Shown here: positions 24,938 to 35,040 of the stretch, piece by piece
How the letters are laid out: the number at the start of each line of letters is the position of its first letter
How positions within the stretch are numbered: position 1 is the first letter of the stretch
DNA from: Hyphomicrobiales bacterium
GTDB lineage: Bacteria; Pseudomonadota; Alphaproteobacteria; Rhizobiales; Xanthobacteraceae
DNA length: 64,000 nt
NCBI GenBank assembly: GCA_016185205.1
Contig: JACPOA010000011.1
Location: 1-64,000 of the forward strand
Direction of reading: 5' to 3'
Translations under genes and position numbers: made by a program
The notes under the pieces: model-generated
The model's database searches: none
The model's input: only the letters and a program-made list of their open reading frames with translations
Told to the model about the DNA's origin: nothing

Positions 24938-24952
24938 TGGCGCTCCCTAGGG
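24938..24952. repeat. attL of the tRNA-Glu island
   Basis: TGGCGCTCCCTAGGG, identical to the last 15 bases (including CCA) of the tRNA-Glu gene read on the opposite strand. The match breaks on both sides. This is the displaced tRNA 3' end. Confidence 0.8.
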
Positions 24953-25211
24953 AAGCGCATGAATTCCACAATTTCAACGGCTTGGCCGCAGGTTTGGGCA
25001 AATCCAGGGGCATTGGCCATCAACGGCTATTTTTAGCGCTGCCCAAACCAAATTGCTTATCGATGACTCGGCCGATCATTCGTCGGCCGACGCCTCGCGC
25101 CCCCGCACCCCCGCGCGCGAGGGGCGGCGGCCTCTCACCCTCCCAGGCGGGAACGCCGCGCACGTTGCTAACGCGTAGCGGAGGCCTCCAGCGAGCGCAC
25201 AGGGGCACACC

Positions 25212-25610
25212 ATGACAACCGACCGGCCTCGTAACGCGCGCGCGCGGCTGCCGGCCGGCGCAGGCGCGGAGCTGCGGTTTATGCGCTCGGCTTGGGCGAA
25301 CTCCGGGGCGAAAGCGCGCCAGGCCTTCCTGTCGGAATTGTTGGCGCCGATCTCCGATCCGCCACGCGTAGAGGCTGCCGCCGCACCTTCCTGGTTTAAT
25401 GAATTCATAGCGGACCGATTGCAGCGCTCGCCGGGCGAGCGCGTGAGAGCGCATGAGCTACTCGACTCCTACAGAGATTGGGCGTCCGCGAAGGGCGCGC
25501 CGAAGCTTGGACCGTTACGGCTCTGTCGGTTGATGACCGCGAGCGGGTTCAAGCGGAAAAAGTCTAGCGAGATTTTTTGGTGCGACGTTCGCCTGCGGGG
25601 TGACCGATGA
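25212..25610 (+). CDS. Stand-alone Pox_D5-like winged-helix protein
   Basis: 132 residues. After a basic N-terminus, the block WFNEFIADRLQRSPGERVRAHELLDSYRDWASAKGAPKLGPLRLCRLMTASGFKRKKSSEIFWCDVRL matches the C-terminal winged helix of D5/P4-type phage and plasmid primase-helicases (ELYxxYxxWxxxxG..L..GF.kkr). The helicase part is absent, so this is a truncated relative or a free DNA-binding module acting at the nearby candidate origin. First gene inside attL. Confidence 0.6.
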   Translation: MTTDRPRNARARLPAGAGAELRFMRSAWANSGAKARQAFLSELLAPISDPPRVEAAAAPSWFNEFIADRLQRSPGERVRAHELLDSYRDWASAKGAPKLGPLRLCRLMTASGFKRKKSSEIFWCDVRLRGDR

Positions 25611-26328
25611 TGCGCGCGGATTGTTTTTTCGTTCTTTTGGATACCGGAACCCTCCCACCCTCCCAATTATTGGGAGGGTGCAGCATGCGAGATACTATTG
25701 ATTTTGGCTCGCTTGTGAAACTTCGGGAGGGTTGGGAGCGTTTTGCAACAACTGTGACTCACGCGTGCGCGCGCGTGCGCGCGCGCACATGCGCGGGGAC
25801 ATTGGTTAAACCCTCCCAACCCTCCCAATATTTAAAACAAACTATCTTATCTCTTTGCCGCTCAATGGCTTTCGAGCATGGGAGGCTTTTCAGAAATCAA
25901 TTTATAGGCCTCCCTCAGCCTCCCTCAATCTCCCGAAGCCCAAGATGGCACGCTCAAGTGCGACCGGCTTCAGAGAGTCCGCGCGACCGTGAGACCTTCT
26001 GGGAAATTCCCAGAAGGTCGATGCTGCCTCAAATCACCGTGGGCAAATTGCCCGGAGTGTCCCCGCCTCTTCGCCCGACCCTGGGGCAAATTGCCCTAGG
26101 GTTGATATCTTTATTCCCATGTCGCCGCCGAACGACAGCAATTGCTGCACGTGTGTGGCATTTGGAATTCGGCCTTCGCCTTGACTCGCGCGCTGCTCGG
26201 GCTGGAAGGGGGATAGGGGGGTCTTTTCTTTGCGACCCTCTCCCTTCGGACCGTTTGGGTAGTCCAAAAAAAACCGCCGCGAAATTTGCGGAATTTGTTT
26301 TTTTTCTCCATTGCGAGTGGTGCTGGCG
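25611..26328. other. Gene-poor stretch with iterons and hairpins; candidate origin
   Basis: Repeated CCCTCCCA words: ACCCTCCCACCCTCCCAATTATTGGGAGGGT (25649..25679, containing an 11-bp inverted repeat), its inverse GGGAGGGTTGGGAG (25725..25738), and ACCCTCCCAACCCTCCCAAT (25810..25829). An alternating purine-pyrimidine GC tract lies at about 25762..25797. Palindromes follow at 25993..26019 and 26078..26102. The ORF at 25607..26332 is open through this DNA but has no protein-like composition. Replication-origin function is inference. Confidence 0.45.
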
Positions 26329-26658
26329 ATGATTGAAAAAGCCGCACTGCTGTCATCAGCGCGTCGTGCGCCGCGATTTGTTTCTCGCCGTACCGCCGCC
26401 GCGCTGCTCGATCTTTCCGGTTCAGGATTCAACAATTGGGTCAAGCGCGGACTATTGCCGCCGCCGGCTGCTGGCACGCCGAACGATGAACCGCGATGGG
26501 AGTGGGAGGAGATCGCGCGCTACATGCGCGGCGACCGATCGAGTGCGCCGCGCGATCTCTTGGGCATGCCGGCGCCCGTACAGCATGGGCACAAACGCGG
26601 GCCAGCACCAGGCCACGGCGGCCGGCCGCGCAATTCAGCGGAGCAAGATCATGGCTGA
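26329..26658 (+). CDS. MerR/AlpA-type helix-turn-helix protein
   Basis: 109 residues from the ATG at 26329. ARRAPRFVSRRTAAALLDLSGSGFNNWVKRGLLPPPAAGTPNDEPRWEWEEIARYMRG is a compact winged HTH as in AlpA or excisionase-like regulators. The tail is basic and Pro-rich (HKRGPAPGHGGRPRNSAEQDHG). Its last bases and the next start form a block, GCGGAGCAAGATCATGGCT, repeated at 27462 with a decayed copy of this gene. Likely a regulator of the island. Confidence 0.6.
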   Translation: MIEKAALLSSARRAPRFVSRRTAAALLDLSGSGFNNWVKRGLLPPPAAGTPNDEPRWEWEEIARYMRGDRSSAPRDLLGMPAPVQHGHKRGPAPGHGGRPRNSAEQDHG

Positions 26659-26995
26659 GATTCTGCGCATGGCGCTGGCGAACGCAACGAACGCGCCAAA
26701 CCTTCGGCAAATTTTCCGAAGGTTTAGTAGCCGGAAGCCTGAACGGCTGAACGTGTTGGCGCGATTATTTTCAATGGTGAGGTATGTCGTCAAACGAAAC
26801 TTTGAGACGCGCCCCGATCGAACCTCGCGGCCGGAGCGGGGACTAAATTCGAATCGTAGCCCCCTGCCGCTAAGGGGCCTGAGAGTGACTTTTAGCCCCC
26901 CACCACATGGGGGGCTAAACGAATCGCAGCGACTCAGTAGCGACTCAGTAGCTACTGAGTCGCCCCCCACCACATGGCAGGGCAATCGCATATGA
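26651..26995 (+). pseudogene. Decayed copy of the 27473..27721 gene
   Basis: Starts MAEILRMALANATNAPNLRQIF, parallel to MAKVLRLHSANDDAPLYERF of the intact gene and sharing the 19-base start junction. Soon afterwards the frame runs through hairpins (26698..26725, 26893..26917, 26941..26962) and into the MITE. Only the first dozen or so codons look original. Confidence 0.45.
26893..26962. repeat. Cluster of perfect hairpins
   Basis: TAGCCCCCC-ACCACAT-GGGGGGCTA (26893..26917) and the 22-bp palindrome CGACTCAGTAGCTACTGAGTCG (26941..26962), the latter preceded by another GACTCAGTAG. A second copy of the first hairpin is split by the MITE. Confidence 0.75.
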
Positions 26996-27120
26996 GTATA
27001 GGAGGAGTCAAAAGATTCTCCCGAGGCAGTATTCGCAAAGTAGTTTGGAGGATTTTGATTCACGACCGCTTCGATCCGGAGAACCAGATTCTCCGCCGAA
27101 TTCCATATGCGATTGCCCTG
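26978..27120. mobile_element. MITE with 17-bp terminal inverted repeats
   Basis: 143 bp. The left end CAGGGCAATCGCATATG and right end CATATGCGATTGCCCTG are perfect inverted repeats. It is flanked by an exact 10-bp direct repeat CACCACATGG (26968..26977, 27121..27130) that belongs to a second copy of the CCCCCCACCACATGGGGGG hairpin. The intact parent hairpin at 26893 shows the empty site. No room for a transposase. A 10-bp target duplication and CAGGG ends suggest mobilisation by an IS4-like transposase (inference). Confidence 0.8.
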
Positions 27121-27255
27121 CACCACATGGGGGGCTAACTTTGACGCGCATATAGAGAGCTGCGCCGCGATGTCGTGCGCCTCTAACTCTTAACTCTTAG
27201 ATAAACCCCCCAACCCCCCTGCGGGGGGCTTCTCGATCGATGAGCGATCAAAAAA

Positions 27256-27480
27256 ATGAAATACAACGGAAGCCAATTAAAAAATCTTGGACGCGCGTTC
27301 CCGGAGATAGCTCGCGACGTGCGCGGCGATCGATCGTGCGCGGCGCGCGATCTCTTGGGCATGGCGGCGCCTGCACATCGGGCGAAGAAGCGCCTTGTCG
27401 CAAAGCCGATGATGCTAAATCGGCAAATTTGCCGATTTTCCGGCCGGTCGCGCAAAACTGCGGAGCAAGATCATGGCTAA
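27256..27480 (+). pseudogene. Truncated copy of the HTH gene 26329..26658
   Basis: The second half, FPEIARDVRGDRSCAARDLLGMAAPAHRAKKR..KTAEQDHG, matches EEIARYMRGDRSSAPRDLLGMPAPVQHGHKR..NSAEQDHG of the intact gene. The HTH itself is missing and the front is unrelated. A 22-bp perfect palindrome, AAATCGGCAAATTTGCCGATTT (27417..27438), sits within it. Remnant of a tandem duplication. Confidence 0.6.
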
Positions 27481-27721
27481 AGTTCTGCGCCTGCACTCGG
27501 CAAACGACGATGCGCCGCTCTACGAGCGATTTGCGGAACGTGCGATTACTGCCGCGACTTCACGCGGGCTGCCGCCTGTGCTGGTTGCCGGCTCGCTGCT
27601 CTCGAAATCGATCAACGTCCTGATCGACGAGCTGGGCGCCGATGAAACGGCGCAGCTGCTGGACGCGCTTGCGCTGAGAATTTCCACCGCGTTGCCGCCG
27701 GGTGCCGACGATGCCGCATAA
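27473..27721 (+). CDS. Small acidic island protein
   Basis: 82 residues, MAKVLRLHSANDDAPLYERFAERAITAATSRGLPPVLVAGSLLSKSINVLIDELGADETAQLLDALALRISTALPP. Predicted all-helical, with a regular LIDELGADETAQLLDALA segment. No family recognised. It lies upstream of, and overlaps, the gene leading to the capsid protein, so a packaging or regulatory role is possible. Confidence 0.5.
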   Translation: MAKVLRLHSANDDAPLYERFAERAITAATSRGLPPVLVAGSLLSKSINVLIDELGADETAQLLDALALRISTALPPGADDAA

Positions 27722-28127
27722 TTGTTTGACTAAAGCTGGAGAATCTGATTCTGCTAACTCAGCCGAAACGGAGATTGCGGCGCCGGTTATGCCGGGCCAC
27801 TCCGCAGAGGCCACCTTGATCGGCGCCAGTCAGGCTGGGCCACGGGTTGAACGGGCGGAAGCCCGGCAGCAACGTGATGATCCGGTGGCCGTGGCGCCTA
27901 AGCCCTCAGTCAACGTCTCCGACATCACGGATTACAAGGCATTCGTGGCCTTCCTGCACAATGTAGGATTTTCACGGGCCTTTGCGAGGCGCGTCACAAA
28001 TCGAGACGCCTTCAAGTCCGCTGCCGAGCCATCCGCCGACAATCAACAGGTCGCGAACGCGATCAAATCTCAACTCGCAGCTCTCTGCGAAACACTGAAA
28101 GGCCCTGACCATGAGACTAAGAAATAG
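27702..28127 (+). CDS. Putative capsid-associated protein (protease or scaffold remnant?)
   Basis: Up to 141 residues (GTG at 27702 or ATG at 27711). The N-terminal half is low-complexity. The C-terminal segment ITDYKAFVAFLHNVGFSRAFARRVTNRDAFKS resembles the short helical motif (xxLEAxLRDAGFSRxxAKxxAxxGF) at the end of HK97 prohead proteases or at capsid N-termini. No protease catalytic His/Ser motif is present. It overlaps the capsid gene start by 17 bp. Tentative. Confidence 0.45.
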   Translation: MPTMPHNCLTKAGESDSANSAETEIAAPVMPGHSAEATLIGASQAGPRVERAEARQQRDDPVAVAPKPSVNVSDITDYKAFVAFLHNVGFSRAFARRVTNRDAFKSAAEPSADNQQVANAIKSQLAALCETLKGPDHETKK

Positions 28128-29364
28128 ATTGGCACGCAGCTCGATGATGACTTCGCCACTGGAAATCAAAGACGGGAGTGGCGGAGCGAGCGACGAAGGG
28201 ACGGCGGAAACGATCTCAGAAATCAATGAGGCGGTCAAAAGATTCATCGACCGCAACGAAGCCGAGACGAAGGCGCTCAAAGTCCAGCTCGCCGCCGAAA
28301 AGAAACGCGTCGATGCACTGGAAAAGAAATCCAATCGGCCGAACCTCGGCAGCGACGTTGCGCCGAATAACAAAATCGATCCAGCGGCGCTCGCGCTCGA
28401 ACGCAAGGCAATGGCGGCTTTCGTGCGCAGCGACGGCAATGGCGATCTTAGCGAAGTCAAAGCAATGTCGGTCAGCACCGACCCGGACGGCGGCTATCTC
28501 GTTCTGCCGCAACGATCCAGCGTCATGACCACGCGGCTCTATGAGGAATCGCCGGTGCGCCGGCTGGCGCGCAATGTGACGATGACGACCGGCGATGCAT
28601 TCGAGGAACCGTTCGACATCGACAATGTGGAGGCGATCTGGGTTGGCGAGAAGCAGGCCCGGCCGGAGACAGATTCGCCCAAGCTTGGCCTGCTAAACAT
28701 ACCGTTGCAGGAGGTCTATGCGAATCCGAAAGCAACGCAAAAACTGCTCGACACCAGCTATATCGATATAGGCGCTTGGCTGGACGGCAAGATCAACGAC
28801 AGGTTTGCGCGTTCGGATGCCGAGTCTTTTGTGAGCGGCGATGGCATCAACCGACCGCGCGGTTTCCTGAACTACGATACGACGACGGAGAACGATTTCG
28901 ACCGCGCCTGGGGCAAGCTGCAATACATCAAAACCGGAGCTGCGACGGCGTTCGCCGCCGTGTCGCCGGGCGACGTGCTGCGCGATCTGGTCTGGTCTTT
29001 GCGAGCGCCTTATCGCAAGAACGCGGTTTTCCTGATGAACAGTTTGACCGCGAGCGTGATCGACAAGTTCAAGAACGGCACGGGCGACTACATCTGGCGC
29101 GATGGCATGACCGCCGGGGCACCGCCGATCCTGTGCGGCTATCCCGTCGAAATCGACGAGAACATGCCGGCCCTTGGCGCCAACACCTATCCGATCGCGT
29201 TCGGAAATTTCGCGCTCGGCTATACGATTCCCGAAAGGCCGGGCCTCAAGATGCTACGCGATCCGTTCACCGACAAGCCGAACGTGTTTTTCTACGCCTA
29301 TCGCCGCGTCGGCGGCGGCGTGTCGAATTTCGACGCGATCAAGCTGCTGAAGTGTGAGGCGTAA
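28111..29364 (+). CDS. HK97-fold phage major capsid protein
   Basis: 417 residues; 28111 has AAAGG upstream, while 28147 (MTSPLEIKDG) is the more usual protein start. Residues about 25-75 form the coiled scaffold (delta) domain EINEAVKRFIDRNEAETKALKVQLAAEKKRVDALEKK. The HK97 body starts near ALERKAMAAFVRSDGN and contains GGYLVLPQ, ETDSPKLGLLNIPLQEVYANPKATQKLLDTSYIDIGAWL, FVSGDGINRPRGFLNY and the final GYTIPERPGLKMLRDPFTDKPNVFFYAYRRVGGGVSNFDAIKLLK. Full length and undamaged, which argues it is still used. Confidence 0.92.
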   Translation: MRLRNRLARSSMMTSPLEIKDGSGGASDEGTAETISEINEAVKRFIDRNEAETKALKVQLAAEKKRVDALEKKSNRPNLGSDVAPNNKIDPAALALERKAMAAFVRSDGNGDLSEVKAMSVSTDPDGGYLVLPQRSSVMTTRLYEESPVRRLARNVTMTTGDAFEEPFDIDNVEAIWVGEKQARPETDSPKLGLLNIPLQEVYANPKATQKLLDTSYIDIGAWLDGKINDRFARSDAESFVSGDGINRPRGFLNYDTTTENDFDRAWGKLQYIKTGAATAFAAVSPGDVLRDLVWSLRAPYRKNAVFLMNSLTASVIDKFKNGTGDYIWRDGMTAGAPPILCGYPVEIDENMPALGANTYPIAFGNFALGYTIPERPGLKMLRDPFTDKPNVFFYAYRRVGGGVSNFDAIKLLKCEA

Positions 29365-29419
29365 GGCTTCACGCTGACTGCCGTCGCGGCCACGGATGAA
29401 CTGGCCGCGATGGCGTAAC

Positions 29420-29449
29420 GCGGGGGCGGCCGGCGGAAGCCGCCCCCGC
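29420..29449 (+). terminator. Hairpin after the capsid gene
   Basis: GCGGGGGCGGC-N8-GCCGCCCCCGC, a perfect 11-bp GC stem 56 bp past the capsid stop. No T-run follows. Confidence 0.55.
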
Positions 29450-29575
29450 ACATTGCTCTGATCGAGCAAATTCGATGCTAAATTTCAGGGCGGTTAAGTC
29501 TGCCCGCGTTTGAACGGATAGTGCAGCGTTGGCCTAGCAACACGATAGGCTCAATAATCAATAGCTTCCCACAAC

Positions 29576-30680
29576 GGCGGCCGGCTCGATCGCGGCGAAC
29601 GCGGTGCAGCTCGCCGGATATCCCGAGCGCGGACCCGTGACGGCGATGATCGATCACGCTGGCGACTGGGCACGCGATGCGCCGGCAGGATCACGGCAGC
29701 AATCCTCGATCACGCTGGCGACCAAGGCGGACGCCGCAATGGCTACAGGCTCGATCGCGGCAAACGTGTGACGCGACACTTCAAGTGTCACCGCTGCGCC
29801 ACTTCAAATGTCACCTCCCGCGAGATCGGAATTAGCGCGAACGTGAAGTCACTTAGACCCCGTTTGCACTGTCTTGATGTCCCAGTTCGTGTCCCAGTTT
29901 CGCAGCAACGCATTCAAGAAGTGCCCGCATTTACTGGAGTCCGAACTGGGACACGGTCCTATTCTTGGTCCCCCAAGAGTCTCAGTTCGGCGATGCCGCA
30001 CTGAAAATGCTTGCGATTTTCGGCTCGCATATTGAGGGTGGTGACATTTGAAGTGACGCAGACCTACCGGACCAGGAACCAGCAACTCCGGGAAAACATA
30101 CGCAGATCAAGGAGATATTGCGTCTAGGTTGCCTCGCAACTCAACAGGCGGCGGTGACACTTGAAGTGTCGCGTCACACAAGCACGCGATGCGCGGGCAG
30201 GATCACGGCGGCAATCCTCGATCATGCTGGCGACCAGGGCGGACGCCGCGATGGCCGCCGGCTCGATCGCAGCGAACGCGGCGCGGCTCGCCGGACATGC
30301 CGAGCGCGGACAAGTGACGGTGACGGGACGCCGCAACAGCCGCCGGCTCGATCGCGGCGAACGCGGCGCGGCTCGCCGGACATGCCGAGCGCGGACCCGT
30401 GGCAGCGATGCTCGATCATGCTGGCGATCGGGCGCGCGACGGCGGCCGGCTCGATCGCGGCGCGCGTGACGCAACTCGCCGGCTATGCCGGGCGCGGACA
30501 CGCGGCAGCGATGCTCGATCACGCTGGCGACCGGGCGCGCGATGCGCCGGCTCGATCGCCGCGAACGTGGCACAGCTCGCAGGATATGCCGAGCGCGGAC
30601 CCGTGGCCGCGATGCTCGATCACGCTGGCGACCGGGCGCGCGATGCACCGGCTCGATCGTCGGTGGCTTTGTGCAGCTGA
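29576..30680. repeat. Degenerate tandem repeat, period about 101 bp
   Basis: The word GGCTCGATCG recurs at 29583, 29748, 30260, 30345, 30448, 30549 and 30650 (last intervals 103, 101 and 101). Each is followed by GCGGCGAACGCGG..CTCGCCGGA.ATGCCGAGCGCGGAC and GATGCTCGATCA.GCTGGCGAC. One frame per unit reads SIAANAxQLAGYxERGPVxAMLDHAGDxARD, but units shift frame relative to each other, so no long protein survives. Interrupted by the inverted-repeat element. DNA from 30681 to about 30980 shows nothing further. Confidence 0.65.
29766..30179. mobile_element. 414-bp inverted-repeat element, non-autonomous
   Basis: Ends are perfect 29-bp inverted repeats (GTGTGACGCGACACTTCAAG.. and its complement). 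Inside lie a second inverted pair, GGTGACATTTGAAGTG(A/G)CGCA (29795..29815, 30040..30060), and a third, CGTGTCCCAGTT..AACTGGGACACG. Layered terminal repeats recall IS21-type ends. No transposase gene and no clear target duplication. It splits the tandem repeat. Confidence 0.6.
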
Positions 30681-30982
30681 CCACGATCACCGAAAACACG
30701 TTTCTTTCCGCCGTGATCTGGCGCTGGCCGGACTTGATCGGGGAGACGATCACGCCCGCACCGTTTCCCGTTGGCTTTGGACCGTCGACAGAGGGCATGG
30801 CAAGGCCGTGAGCCGAGAAAGCCGGGCCGAATACCTCGACATCGCCAGCGGTGCTTATTCCGGCTCCAGCGGCAAATGCTGCCCATGGGCGGCATTTGCG
30901 GCGCGCTGATCGGCCGCGACAAAAAACGCCGCAGCGCTCCCCGCAGGGAGCTTGCACGCGGGCGGCAAATCAGAGAATCTGT

Positions 30983-31243
30983 CCGTGGGTGTAAGAACCC
31001 GGACCAGTGACAGGCGGAAGCCCCTGCAAGGGCGCCGGCCTGGTGCAAGCCGCGCATCATATTGCGGCCTGCAAAGCGACGGCTTGGCGGCCGTCCGCTA
31101 CCGACAATCCTATGTCGGGAGGCGGGCGCCATACAAGACCCTCACGGGGAAAACGTCCGACCTGTCTCACTGGCAGGTTCTTACCCTCCCGGCGCCACGG
31201 CGGACCCCGTGGCGAGGCTGTAAGAAGCCGAACCAGTGAGCCA
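30983..31243 (+). ncRNA. Possible structured RNA with two covarying hairpins
   Basis: Hairpin A GGGT-GTAAGA-ACCC then GGACCAGTGA (30987..31010); hairpin B GGCT-GTAAGA-AGCC then GAACCAGTGA (31216..31239). Loop and tail are shared while the stem base pair has changed on both sides. Between them, TCACTGGCAGGTTCTTAC (31167..31184) is complementary to A (9+7 bp) and B (7+7 bp), so alternative pairings are possible. A further stem GCCACGG..CCGTGGC lies at 31194..31213. It ends about 115 nt before the gene at 31360. Family not recognised. Confidence 0.4.
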
Positions 31244-31359
31244 ACACCATGATCGCTCAGAGAACCCACCGTGCCGCCCTGACCGGCGCCGCTCGCGCTA
31301 TTGTGTTGCCCGGCAGCGCATCCGCGCGGCCATCAAAATTGATCAGCAGGAGAAGCATC

Positions 31360-32016
31360 ATGCTCGGTAGTGTTGCGTGCGTTGCCGCCCCTTTATCCCC
31401 GTCTCTCGCTGCCCCTTCAATCGCCGGTCCTGGAGGACCTGATCGGGACGATCCTATTTTTGCTGCGATCGAGAGACACCGCGCAGCTCGTGCCGACTAT
31501 GATCGCCAAGCTGGCATCACTATCGAGATGTCCAATTCGTGCCCGGCCGATCTTGCCGGACCGCATAGCGTTCAGATCGGTAAGATTCTCGGTTCCAACG
31601 GCGAGTCCGATCGGCCGCATATGGCTTGGTCGCACGATTGCATTGATGAACACTTCGACGCCAACGCTAAGACGATGCAATCAATGTGGGGCGACAACTG
31701 GCATCCGGAAAAGCTTGAGGAAATGCGGCGGGCGAAGCATGCCGAACTCGACGAATTGTTGACGCCGCACGATGCTTGGAGTGAAAAATCCGGCCTTAAC
31801 GCCGCCGATGCGGAATTGGAGCGACTATCGGATATAGAGATCGCGCGGCTCGACGAACTCGACAAGACCGCCTCGAGCACGGTGGCCGGCCTGCACGCGT
31901 ACGTGCGCTACCGCCTGGAGCTCGAACACCGGATCGACCCTGATATCGAGCAAGAAGTGAGCTGGCTGTTGCTTCGTAATGCTGGCGATGCCCTTACGCG
32001 GCTGTTGGCCGCTTAG
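31360..32016 (+). CDS. Island protein with possible signal sequence, unknown function
   Basis: 218 residues from the ATG at 31360, which has AGGAG 8 bases upstream; the track start 31249 has none. The opening MLGSVACVAAPLSPSLAAPSIA looks like an export signal; the upstream in-frame LISRRSIM would make it twin-arginine-like. Then DPIFAAIERHRAARADYDRQAGI, a helical acidic body (NWHPEKLEEMRRAKHAELDELLTPHDAWSEK) and EQEVSWLLLRNAGDALTRLL. Similar DPIFAAIExHRAA proteins are common, uncharacterised rhizobial accessory genes. Confidence 0.65.
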   Translation: MLGSVACVAAPLSPSLAAPSIAGPGGPDRDDPIFAAIERHRAARADYDRQAGITIEMSNSCPADLAGPHSVQIGKILGSNGESDRPHMAWSHDCIDEHFDANAKTMQSMWGDNWHPEKLEEMRRAKHAELDELLTPHDAWSEKSGLNAADAELERLSDIEIARLDELDKTASSTVAGLHAYVRYRLELEHRIDPDIEQEVSWLLLRNAGDALTRLLAA

Positions 32017-32175
32017 TCTTACCGGCCGGCGGTTGGGAGTCATAGGCTGCTATTGGGAATGCCGCGATTCGCGCTCCGCTCCGAAAAAGGGCGGGGCGCG
32101 AAATTTTTAAGATGGCATTTGCGACTTGCTGGCCGGTGATATTTATAGGGGGCCTCTCAAGCCAAGGAGGCACCT

Positions 32176-32577
32176 ATGTACGGCATCATCTCCCCTTCCG
32201 CCCTGCCCGCCTCGCGCCGCCGACGCGCGCGCATGGACAATCACGCCGCGGCGCAGGCCAGCTACCGCAAAAAGCTGAAGGCAAACTGCGTTCCCGATCG
32301 CGAGGACGTCGCCATCGCGGCGCTGACGGTGGCGCTGATGATGGTGAACAACGATCCCGCTAACGAAGTCGTTGCCGGCATGCGCCGCGCGATCATCGGC
32401 GAACTGGTCTGCGTAGGCTTCAATCGCGACCAGGCGCTGCGCCGTTTCGACGGGATGGTGGAGAATATCCACGAGGATCGCGCGAAGCGACAACGCTACC
32501 GCGAATGGGAGACTGCGCGAGCTGCCGAGCGGGCGGCGTCCGACCGTGGCGACGGATCACCGGGTGGTGCGGTGTAA
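32176..32577 (+). CDS. Uncharacterised island protein
   Basis: 133 residues; strong site AAGGAGGCACCT before the ATG. A basic N-terminus (SRRRRARMDNHAAAQASYRKKLKANC), then a helical part VAIAALTVALMMVNNDPANEVVAGMRRAIIGELVCVGFNRDQALRRFDGMVENI. No signal peptide or known motif. Codon pattern and ribosome-binding site support a real gene. Confidence 0.6.
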   Translation: MYGIISPSALPASRRRRARMDNHAAAQASYRKKLKANCVPDREDVAIAALTVALMMVNNDPANEVVAGMRRAIIGELVCVGFNRDQALRRFDGMVENIHEDRAKRQRYREWETARAAERAASDRGDGSPGGAV

Positions 32578-32667
32578 CGGGGGGACGAGGCGAAATAGAT
32601 CGTCATCCGGTGATCGGTGCCTCCCCACGAGGCCGAGTTCTTCACAGCAGCCGGGATGGCTCTTGCC

Positions 32668-32695
32668 AAGTATACATTGACTCAAGTATACATAG
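32668..32695. promoter_or_regulatory. Operator-like direct repeat
   Basis: CAAGTATACATTGA-CT-CAAGTATACATAGA: two copies of CAAGTATACAT with GTATAC cores, 16 bp apart, 28 bp before the HTH gene at 32723. One and a half helical turns between centres suits dimeric repressor binding, possibly by that HTH protein. Confidence 0.45.
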
Positions 32696-32722
32696 AATCA
32701 ATTTGGGACCGCGAGTCTGCCG

Positions 32723-33229
32723 ATGATCGAAAGCAGCAATAGGATTTTCAGCTACGCCGAAATTGAGGCGATGACGCTCGGCTGGGCCGATAAGCGGATG
32801 ATTCAAAATCGGCGGGCTTTGAAATTATGGCTGACGCCGGTCGCGGAACCGCCGAAGGGCAAGGCTTACGACTATCGCTGGCCGCACGTCTTCGAAATGG
32901 TGATTTCGGCGGAGTTGGTGAAGCGCGGCTTCACACACGAGTCGGCAACTGAGGCGATCAGGAATCGATTACGGGCTGCGTCGGGTCGCCGGGGCGGATG
33001 GGCCGCCGATCTTAAATTCTCGGAACTGCCAGAAATCGACGGACGCGATTGCTATTGGGTCATGAACGTTATGCCGGATCAGCATTGGGGCTTGGTCCCG
33101 GGTGCGGTGCTGGCGTGCTGGTCACAGCAAGAGGTGGGGGCGGCGATCGCTGATTTGGACGCGGCTCTTGTGTTGAACGTCGCGCGCGTGCTTCGCGAAG
33201 CCCGCGCGCGCCTGCCGGCGGGGGAGTAA
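32723..33229 (+). CDS. MerR-like HTH protein of the island
   Basis: 168 residues. FSYAEIEAMTLGWADKRMIQNRRALKLWLTPVAEPPKGKAYDYRWPHVFEMVISAELVKRGFTHESATEAI resembles a MerR-type winged helix with dimer helix. The C-terminal part (DCYWVMNVMPDQHWGLVPGAVLACW) may be a sensing domain. It sits at the start of the int/xis gene run behind the CAAGTATACAT repeats, so it may be the island's regulator. 2 bp separate it from the next gene. Confidence 0.6.
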   Translation: MIESSNRIFSYAEIEAMTLGWADKRMIQNRRALKLWLTPVAEPPKGKAYDYRWPHVFEMVISAELVKRGFTHESATEAIRNRLRAASGRRGGWAADLKFSELPEIDGRDCYWVMNVMPDQHWGLVPGAVLACWSQQEVGAAIADLDAALVLNVARVLREARARLPAGE

Positions 33230-33231
33230 CC

Positions 33232-33606
33232 ATGGCTCCCAAAATTGCGGATTGCATCGTCATCACTGGAATTAGTCTCGCTGGGCAGAATTCCAAAAAT
33301 GCCGGCCGGCGCGTGATTGCATACTTCGATGTGAGGATCATCGACGCGATCGAGCTGCGCGGCTGCATCCTCGTGCGCACCGCTAATGACGGTGTTGCGA
33401 TCGCGCCGCCACGTTTCGACAATTCCGACCCGCGCCGGGCGATCGCTATCGTCGATAGCAGCTTTCAAAACATGATCTGCGTCGCTGCACGGGAGGCATA
33501 CAAGAGCTTGGGAGGCGTTGATTTGCCCGATTGGGCGATGGGCACGAAAATTCCGCTTCCGGCTTGCAGGCCGGCGGACGATGATCGGGACCATGGCACG
33601 CTATGA
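33232..33606 (+). CDS. Uncharacterised island protein, weakly SpoVG-like
   Basis: 124 residues. RRVIAYFDVRIIDAIELRGCILVRTANDGVAIAPPRFDNSDPRRAIAIVDSSFQNMICVAAREAYKSL has the strand order and spacing of SpoVG-type DNA-binding proteins (AxFDVxx..i.g..lv...dG..iapP.). The resemblance is visual and weak. Stop overlaps the start of the excisionase-like gene by 14 bp; same operon as int. Confidence 0.5.
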   Translation: MAPKIADCIVITGISLAGQNSKNAGRRVIAYFDVRIIDAIELRGCILVRTANDGVAIAPPRFDNSDPRRAIAIVDSSFQNMICVAAREAYKSLGGVDLPDWAMGTKIPLPACRPADDDRDHGTL

Positions 33607-33868
33607 CGCCTTACCGCCGACCCTTGCACCCCGGCTGATTAGCCGGGAAGCTGCGGCGGCGTACGTGTGCGTGTCGCCGAACACGTTTGATGAAATGATA
33701 AAGGATGGCCGGATGCCCGGCGCGAAGCGCCTCAGCGATCGGCGCATCGCATGGGATGTCCGCGAACTCGACGCGGCTGTTGACCGACTGCCCGCCTCCG
33801 CCGGCGGCGGCGGTACTGACGAAAGCTGGAGCGACGTTGATGCCTCGCAAGCGTCCGCCATTCGTTGA
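33593..33868 (+). CDS. Excisionase-like (AlpA/Xis) HTH protein
   Basis: 91 residues from the ATG at 33593. PRLISREAAAAYVCVSPNTFDEMIKDGRMPGAKRLSDRRIAWDVRELDAAVDRLP is a textbook MerR-like excisionase winged helix. Overlaps both neighbours, directly upstream of the integrase, which fits a recombination directionality factor for the 15-bp att sites. Confidence 0.8.
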   Translation: MARYDALPPTLAPRLISREAAAAYVCVSPNTFDEMIKDGRMPGAKRLSDRRIAWDVRELDAAVDRLPASAGGGGTDESWSDVDASQASAIR

Positions 33869-34952
33869 GCTTTGGCGCGATCGACACGGCAAGGTCCGCG
33901 TCTATTTCCGCAAGGACCGTGGGCCGCGCATTCGTTTGCCCGACGCCATCGGCTCCGATGAATTCAATTCCGCTTATCAGGCCGCGCTGCTTGGCCAGCC
34001 GGCGCCCATCCAGGATCGGTTCACGCGCACGGCGCCGGGCTCGATGGCGGCCCTCGTCGTTTCATACCTCAAAAGCCCCGCTTATATGGTTCTCAGGGAC
34101 ACGACGAAAACCGGTTACAGCAGCCGGATCGAGACGTTACGCGAACAGCACGGCCTCCGCAGTGTTATGGGCCTCACGCGCGAGCGTATCGAGAGCGGAA
34201 TTCTCGGGCCTTACGCCGGTCGTCCAGGCTCGCAGCTCGCGATTCTCAAGATGCTGCGCGTGCTGATTAGGCATGCGATGAGCCTCGAGCGCGGCAATCC
34301 TTTGAAATTGTCGGCAGATCCATCCGAAGGCATCGCGCGGCCGAAGGGTCACGAGATCCGCGCCTGGACCGATGCCGAGACGGCGGCATTCGAAAGGCGC
34401 TGGCCGATCGGCACGAAGCAGCGGACCGCCTATTCGCTCATGCTATTCGTGGGCACCGCACGCGTCGACGTGCACCGGATGACGTGGACGCAATTCGATG
34501 CCGGCGGCGTCGGCTATGTCCGCAGCAAGACCGGGGTCGGCGTCGACATGGCCGTGCATGCAGAACTGCAGCGCGCCCTGGCCGTTGCCGATCGCAGCCA
34601 TGTCACGATCCTGAACACCGACTATGGCCGCCCCTTCACGGTCAGCGGTTTCAGCAACTTCATGCGCGATGCGATCTCGGAAGCTGGACTACCGCTCGCC
34701 TGCAAGCCGCATGGCCTCCGCAAGACGCTCGGCCGGCGCCTGGCCGACGCCGGCTGCACCGCGCACGAGATCATGGCCATGCTCGGCCATACCACGCTGG
34801 AGGAAGCCGAGCGCTACACGCGCGAAGCCGATCGGCGTCGCGGCGGCCGCCAGGCCATTATCAAGCTTGAGGCACACAAAGCGAACGCGGATGCCCAAAC
34901 CGCCTTTCTGGGTTTGGGAAAAGGCGGAAAAAGAAAAAGGAAATCAACGTGA
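33840..34952 (+). CDS. int: Tyrosine recombinase (island integrase)
   Basis: 370 residues from the ATG at 33840, overlapping the xis stop; the track start 33705 lies inside xis. An N-terminal SAM-like/core-binding part (about 80-170), then the catalytic domain with VGTARVDVHRMTWTQ (first Arg), KPHGLRKTLG (His-x-x-Arg), MLGHTTLEEAERYT (His and the nucleophilic Tyr). The end is very basic (GKGGKRKRKST). The gene ends 12 bp before attR in tRNA-Glu. Confidence 0.92.
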   Translation: MPRKRPPFVELWRDRHGKVRVYFRKDRGPRIRLPDAIGSDEFNSAYQAALLGQPAPIQDRFTRTAPGSMAALVVSYLKSPAYMVLRDTTKTGYSSRIETLREQHGLRSVMGLTRERIESGILGPYAGRPGSQLAILKMLRVLIRHAMSLERGNPLKLSADPSEGIARPKGHEIRAWTDAETAAFERRWPIGTKQRTAYSLMLFVGTARVDVHRMTWTQFDAGGVGYVRSKTGVGVDMAVHAELQRALAVADRSHVTILNTDYGRPFTVSGFSNFMRDAISEAGLPLACKPHGLRKTLGRRLADAGCTAHEIMAMLGHTTLEEAERYTREADRRRGGRQAIIKLEAHKANADAQTAFLGLGKGGKRKRKST

Positions 34953-34964
34953 AAGCCGATGCGC

Positions 34965-34979
34965 TGGCGCTCCCTAGGG
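34965..34979. repeat. attR, 3' end of tRNA-Glu
   Basis: TGGCGCTCCCTAGGG, identical to attL at 24938. It covers CCA, discriminator base, acceptor 3' strand and the start of the T stem. Confidence 0.8.
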
Positions 34980-35040
34980 GACTCGAACCCCTGTTTTCGC
35001 CGTGAGAGGGCGACGTCCTGGGCCGCTAGACGAAGGGAGC
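34965..35040 (-). tRNA. tRNA-Glu (anticodon CTC)
   Basis: Minus strand GCTCCCTTCGTCTAGCGGCC..: 7-bp acceptor GCTCCCT/AGGGAGC, D arm CGTCTAGCGGCCCAGGACG, anticodon arm TCGCC-CTCTCAC-GGCGA with CTC at 34-36, T arm CAGGGGTTCGAGTCCCCTA, and an encoded CCA. 76 nt. It is the island's integration site and remains intact. Confidence 0.93.

Follow-up and report, generated by a model that had tools for sequence, protein, structure and literature searches.

A hairpin-dense segment as the probable replication-origin and control region of a tRNA-integrated, capsid-carrying satellite-like element

The window analyzed here, a stretch of 64,000 nucleotides from contig JACPOA010000011.1 of a Hyphomicrobiales bacterium, contains an integrated element of 10,042 bp (24938-34979) that is bounded by an exact 15-bp repeat. 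The left part of this element, beginning approximately 120 bp inside its left end, is a segment crowded with perfect palindromes (25066-27752), whose origin and function are the subject of this analysis. All conclusions are drawn from sequence; genes were called by a simple longest-open-reading-frame method and the genome searches covered samples of genomes. The left end of the element and the adjoining part of the segment comprise the following features, with ORF denoting an open reading frame:

24938-24952: left attachment repeat (attL) TGGCGCTCCCTAGGG, exact 15-bp repeat of 34965-34979
25212-25610, plus strand: 132-aa ORF, stand-alone C-terminal winged-helix domain of a P4-type phage primase, presumed origin-binding protein
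25648-25740: iteron set 1, ACCCTCCC units with an inverted pair (palindrome 25656-25680) and reversed GGGAGGGTTGGGAG
25765-25788: alternating GC palindrome GTGCGCGCGCGTGCGCGCGCGCAC with GACTCAC flanks
25809-25828, plus strand: iteron set 2, AACCCTCCCAACCCTCCCAA
25827-25856: AT-rich stretch between iteron sets, candidate unwinding site, lowest-GC 30-mer (17%) of the 10-kb element
25908-25934, plus strand: iteron set 3, GCCTCCCTCAGCCTCCCTCAATCTCCC
25993-26019: AAATT palindrome GACCTTCTGGGAAATTCCCAGAAGGTC, 13-bp stem, replaced by other palindromes in L572, L576, and L575
26041-26053: AAATT palindrome GGGCAAATTGCCC, its center 41 bp from that of the 25993 palindrome
26078-26102: AAATT palindrome ACCCTGGGGCAAATTGCCCTAGGGT, its center 43 bp from that of the 26041 palindrome

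All ten palindromes listed in the original prediction are present where it had placed them, and their density lies far above the shuffled range: Counting perfect stems with loops of at most 8 nt, we found nine stems of at least 8 bp in the segment compared to a mean of 0.71 (maximum 3) in 100 dinucleotide shuffles of 25066-27752, eight of at least 9 bp compared to 0.19 (maximum 2), and seven of at least 10 bp compared to 0.07. The entire window holds 31 stems of at least 8 bp, nine of which fall within these 2.7 kb. Taken singly, the palindromes at 27740 and 27214 (6 bp each) are unremarkable, and that at 26078 contains one mismatch; two strong palindromes had been missed, namely the one at 25424-25442, which falls inside an ORF, and GTGCGCGCGCGTGCGCGCGCGCAC. 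The palindromes had been called unrelated, which is correct insofar as their stems do not form one family, but several of them are related: Palindrome 25657 is built from the unit ACCCTCCC, which is also repeated close by, hairpin 26893 has a second copy split by a miniature inverted-repeat transposable element (MITE), and six palindromes indeed share an AAATT(T) center (25993, 26041, 26084, ~26283, 26698, and 27417). The hairpin cluster is real, and it is a mixture of probable origin parts in its left part, terminator-like stems, a small transposon, and AAATT-centered palindromes.

The 132-aa ORF matches the end of the PHROG DNA primase profile (E 5e-5) and aligns with the C-termini of full-length primases. 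Its AlphaFold2 (AF2) model reaches pLDDT values of 95-97 across residues 61-130, and in Foldseek this model is matched best by the RFX DNA-binding domain (TM 0.73 by target) and by the C-terminus of full-length AsfvPrimPol. The predicted fold fits the winged-helix end of a primase-helicase, being RFX-like and similar to the C-terminus of a viral PrimPol. Profile, alignment, model, and fold agree in assigning to the ORF the C-terminal winged-helix DNA-binding domain of P4-type primases, and an NCBIfam search returned no match for it, the TIGR01613 primase-helicase core being absent from its 132 aa. Searching genomes with the protein yielded short stand-alone relatives besides full primases.

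Directly downstream of this gene, the region 25648-25936 matches a conserved iteron origin that is located directly 3' of phage P4-type primase genes. Its ACCCTCCC units at 25649, 25657, 25672, 25725, 25810, and 25819 are arranged partly as an inverted pair, partly as reversed copies, and partly as a direct pair. The architecture of set 1 recurs 3' of the primase in the loci L554, L556, L562, L564, L575, and L576 as well as on contig 65 of the same genome, the GC palindrome has a near-identical counterpart, GTGCGCGCGCGTGCGCGCGCAC, at the same place in L571/L575 and related tracts in L562 and L556, and units comparable to set 3 occur in L562, L571, and L576. A scan of viral contigs for the direct iteron pair found 12 contigs. 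In four of them, a ACCCTCCC array immediately follows, on the 3' side, a gene with a C-terminus matching the 132-aa ORF; two of these four primases were tested, and both clear by a wide margin the cut-off of TIGR01613 "phage/plasmid primase, P4 family". In L562 the order of parts is the same as in the window: inverted pair, reversed repeats, TTTTGCAA, GACTCAC, GC-alternating tract, direct pair, AT-rich DNA, and further iterons. Genomes of the host family show the same arrangement, sometimes behind a short stand-alone domain (contig 65, L575), and ten homologous downstream regions contain 13 palindromes compared to 1.5 expected. As a marker of origins by DNA pattern, the alternating GC palindrome was rejected, its viral matches being mostly chance. 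L571/L575 has a second origin, which is diverged and built from AACCCTCG-type units; at ~8690-9400 of L575, a single stand-alone initiator domain is followed by two origins in tandem, whose iterons differ (CCTCCC and CCCTCG types). A possible further origin lies at ~3900-4150 of L586, where TGTTAC-type repeats surround a ACTCACGCGTGCGCGCG tract.

Among eight sequences, both partners have changed in 4 of the 9 base pairs in the stem of palindrome 25657, and 95.8% of cells are paired; none of 500 shuffles reached the covariation score. At seven of the eight loci, both palindrome arms equal an iteron variant found elsewhere in the same origin; these variants differ by locus (ACCCTCCC, ACGCTCCC, ATCCTCCC, ACCTTCCC), and the arms match the local iterons. 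Consequently, the simplest cause of the covariation is that the iterons of one origin change together, and the covariation is no demonstration of single-stranded or hairpin folding. Conserved, covarying stems had been proposed as a check and do exist, but concerted iteron change accounts for them, which serves as a warning that stem covariation in origins can arise in this way instead of by folding. What the pattern supports is an origin with its own specificity. Of the suggested role in single-stranded replication, the part concerning replication is supported: The left third of the segment, with its iterons, its lowest-GC 30-mer, and its palindromes at a conserved place 3' of a primase-type DNA-binding domain, points to replication. 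For a role in packaging, which had also been suggested, no evidence was found in the segment.

The AAATT trio lies 3' of the iterons. At its position, L572 contains AAACCGGCCAATTGGCCGGTTT, L576 contains GAACGCTGTGCGAAAATTTCGCGGAGCGTTC, and L571 contains GACCCTTTGGCCAAGTTGGGCAAGGGTTG, which the palindrome at 26078 resembles; some origins therefore share an A/T-centered palindrome behind their iterons, although its stem differs from one to the next. With moderate confidence, we regard the AAATT palindromes as dyads to which proteins bind, most likely as part of the origin or as sites of a regulator. As a widespread feature, the AAATT array was rejected, paired GGSAAATTSCC giving, besides the window, only chance-like matches in 249 genomes of the order. 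The sequence CTGGGNAAATTNCCCAG was found in 4 of 150 family genomes with 0 control matches, two of the four lying within ~12 kb of phage capsid genes.

A second capsid-carrying element of the same genome lies on contig 65 (L572 1259-11427). This sister element comprises a stand-alone domain, an origin with ACCTTCCC units, a ClpP-like protease, an HK97 capsid protein, a 1136-aa protein matching Dsr1, a regulator-like ORF, and an integrase.

The remaining features of the segment and of the element in the window are as follows, HTH denoting helix-turn-helix:

26266-26306: terminator-like A8 - CCGCGAAATTTGCGG - T run
26311-26658, plus strand: 115-aa HTH (excisionase/AlpA-like) ORF, PHROG 597/66, E 3e-5 to 1e-4
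26698-26725: AAATT palindrome AAACCTTCGGCAAATTTTCCGAAGGTTT, near-same palindrome (one base changed) in several viral contigs
26891-26919: terminator-like hairpin TTTAGCCCCCCACCACATGGGGGGCTAAA from the stem search, repeat D3
26978-27120: 143-bp MITE with inverted ends CAGGGCAATCGCATATG, inserted in the second copy of the 26891 hairpin
27417-27438: AAATTT-centered palindrome, located where the two HTH gene copies differ in length by 27 nt (offsets 795 vs 822)
28111-29364, plus strand: HK97-type major capsid protein, 417 aa, Pfam Phage_capsid, E 4e-75
33705-34952, plus strand: tyrosine integrase adjoining tRNA-Glu, Pfam PF00589, E 1e-12
34965-34979: right attachment repeat within the 3' end of the tRNA-Glu gene (34965-35040, minus strand)

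Terminators had been dismissed as an explanation of the hairpin density. Several of the hairpins are ordinary, however: By their sequence, 26266-26306 and 27205-27230 look like terminators, and one hairpin copy holds the MITE. The latter is a short non-coding element with 17-bp inverted ends, which are the long inverted pair 26977/27091, and with a 10-bp target duplication CACCACATGG at 26968-26977 and 27121-27130. It has four copies in the genome (window and contigs 19, 29, and 83), exact 10-bp duplications being present at those of the window, contig 19, and contig 83, and the contig 83 copy likewise interrupts a palindromic stem. This insertion explains why CACCACATGG is present three times and where the long inverted pair comes from. 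Diverged MITE ends, CAGGGGAATCGCATGTG, occur at several contig ends and are perhaps those of the parent insertion sequence. The 115-aa HTH ORF has a partial copy at 27298-27480 (repeats D1/D2). As homologous islands, neither the relatives of this ORF (few, distant, and with no hairpin cluster nearby) nor those of the capsid protein (nearest at 55% capsid identity and lacking the hairpin cluster) were retained. For a 255-aa protein, no close relative was found in plasmids or in 60 relatives. Between the capsid and the downstream genes, 29530-30680 consists of degenerate repeated DNA with GATCACGCTGGCGACCGGGCGCGCGATGC-type units, and at 30990-31240 an Rfam sRNA-Xcc1 match at gathering score (31114-31201) stands beside inverted and direct copies of GTAAGAACC..CCAGTGA.

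A by-catch of the palindrome analysis concerns ParB-like phage genes. Since viral pattern scans select for palindromes, rates were taken from protein-chosen sets only. Among relatives chosen by protein alone (L276-L355, viral contigs), the coding linker right after the HTH contains a stem of at least 8 bp in 45 of 71 cases, compared to 0/71, 2/69, and 3/65 in control stretches, and 35 exceed all 60 synonymous reshuffles. These in-frame linker palindromes are maintained at the DNA level, whereas their sequence and reading frame vary among phages, most of which have a palindrome of their own. Dispersed operators were rejected, as the linker palindrome is usually single within the surrounding 10 kb. 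A further set of ParB-like/MT-A70 genes (L356-L435, viral contigs) encodes SANLPT/SANLQT, and in nearly all relatives the sequence there has a palindromic core that is short (CAAATTTG type, fitting the codons GCA AAT TTG); as functional evidence this was set aside, since the cores are mostly short and extended in a subset only. The linker palindromes bear a mere resemblance to those of the window. That the AAATT palindromes are, together with the linker palindromes, members of a broader group of phage DNA dyads keeping symmetry while their sequence changes, the linker palindromes being self-encoded recognition sites co-evolving with their protein, and that the satellite carries such sites to use or mimic this system, is a speculation that we consider quite unlikely.

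From the arrangement of these parts, we consider it likely that the hairpin-dense segment serves the 10-kb element as its replication origin and control region; the element itself is integrated at a tRNA gene, carries a capsid gene, and resembles a phage satellite. The 132-aa winged-helix protein would bind the ACCCTCCC iterons directly downstream melt the AT-rich stretch 25827-25856, and recruit a replisome from elsewhere, namely that of a helper phage or of the host. Origin parts would also include the alternating GC palindrome and the inverted iterons, and the AAATT palindromes right after the last iterons would probably be additional dyads for protein binding, belonging either to the origin or to the promoter of the next gene. 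The other hairpins would be terminator-like stems, one holding the MITE. Several observations weigh against this interpretation: The 132-aa ORF has a low identity (26-42%) to the C-termini of primases, and its model reaches a Foldseek E-value of 1.4e-3 at best; the protein lacks the helicase and primase domains and may thus be a decayed remnant. L562, L564, and L556 have no palindrome after the iterons, and the AAATT trio was not found as a cluster in the 249 genomes of the order. Finally, no packaging family (terminase, portal, or protease) was found among the tested ORFs beyond the capsid, so that the satellite status is one of resemblance.

A rival view is that the element is a decayed prophage, in which case its hairpins would be phage terminators and operators left over in non-coding DNA and preserved there by chance. 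The primase reduced to its last domain, the missing terminase and portal, the degenerate repeats at 29.5-30.7 kb, and the partial duplicate HTH gene with the MITE would fit; yet the capsid and integrase ORFs are intact, the att repeats are exact, the iterons and palindromes are intact, and the sister element shares the stand-alone domain and the layout while having its own iteron variant, which makes decay an unlikely explanation. Extremely improbable is the previously suggested family of hairpin RNAs, as is a set of AAAUU-loop sites at which RNA would be processed: Several RNA folds are predicted to be strong (-17 to -25 kcal/mol) and the AAATT center is shared, but the palindromes are symmetric through the center, as expected for double-stranded dyads, the covariation is explained by iteron copies, and the Rfam scan of the window gave matches elsewhere and none in the segment.

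Two further explanations concern the AAATT palindromes themselves. Their spacing, with successive centers about four helical turns apart, their dyad symmetry, and their location upstream of the HTH ORF would suit an operator array (25993, 26041, 26084) for the regulator at 26311, independent of replication. This remains conceivable but doubtful, as the arms differ by site, whereas the operators of one protein are usually alike, and as the sister element has a palindrome there with no recognizable HTH ORF after it. Alternatively, small palindromic insertion elements like those of Rickettsia might have landed in coding and non-coding phage or island DNA. The one 27-nt length difference between the gene copies does hold a palindrome, and a near-same palindrome encodes SANLP in ParB-like genes and another viral ORF, being in another frame in the window; however, clean empty sites bearing target duplications did not turn up, the stems vary by copy, unlike in a mobile family, and the place in phage ParB-like genes is fixed, which makes this explanation very unlikely.

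If the segment is indeed an iteron origin served by the 132-aa protein, satellite-like elements cut the P4-type initiator to its origin-binding domain and keep a diversified iteron origin, and two versions of this origin coexist in one genome. One could then test in what way replication is started by an initiator lacking a helicase, and whether resident satellites stay compatible because their iterons have diverged.

A close comparison is with phage-inducible chromosomal islands (PICIs), whose replication module consists of pri-rep followed by the origin; the origin directly adjoins the 3' side of the initiator gene, and its AT-rich region has a set of iterons on either side (PMC6092414). The window shows the same location of the origin and a like arrangement of iterons around an AT-rich stretch in an integrated island with its own tyrosine integrase and attachment site, the 15-bp att repeat at tRNA-Glu. 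A pri-rep primase/initiator gene is absent: The initiator is the C-terminal winged helix alone, and the element carries a capsid gene. Capsid-forming PICIs (cfPICIs) are likewise small integrated elements with their own HK97 capsid gene; in contrast to them, the element in the window has no complete head and packaging gene set, with no terminase, portal, or protease recognized, while the sister element does encode a ClpP-like protease. The P4 alpha protein with its origin and the TIGR01613 primases have a homologous C-terminal region and adjacent iterons, but the window protein lacks the primase and helicase domains and the iteron sequence differs. In pRN1, a stem-loop 3' of the gene for ORF904, a primase-SF3-winged-helix protein, is required (PMC4234260). 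Both systems have structured DNA directly 3' of a gene of this kind, its stem structure being more conserved than its sequence; pRN1 has one long required stem-loop, whereas the window has several short palindromes, one of which is an iteron pair. The PLE satellite of Vibrio cholerae, finally, has an initiator with neither helicase nor primase and needs its helper phage (PMC7145576). Its semi-palindromic iterons converge on a poly-A tract and are similar in form to the AAATT sites; its RepA has a RepA_N fold as opposed to the RFX-like winged helix predicted in the window, where dependence on a helper is inferred.

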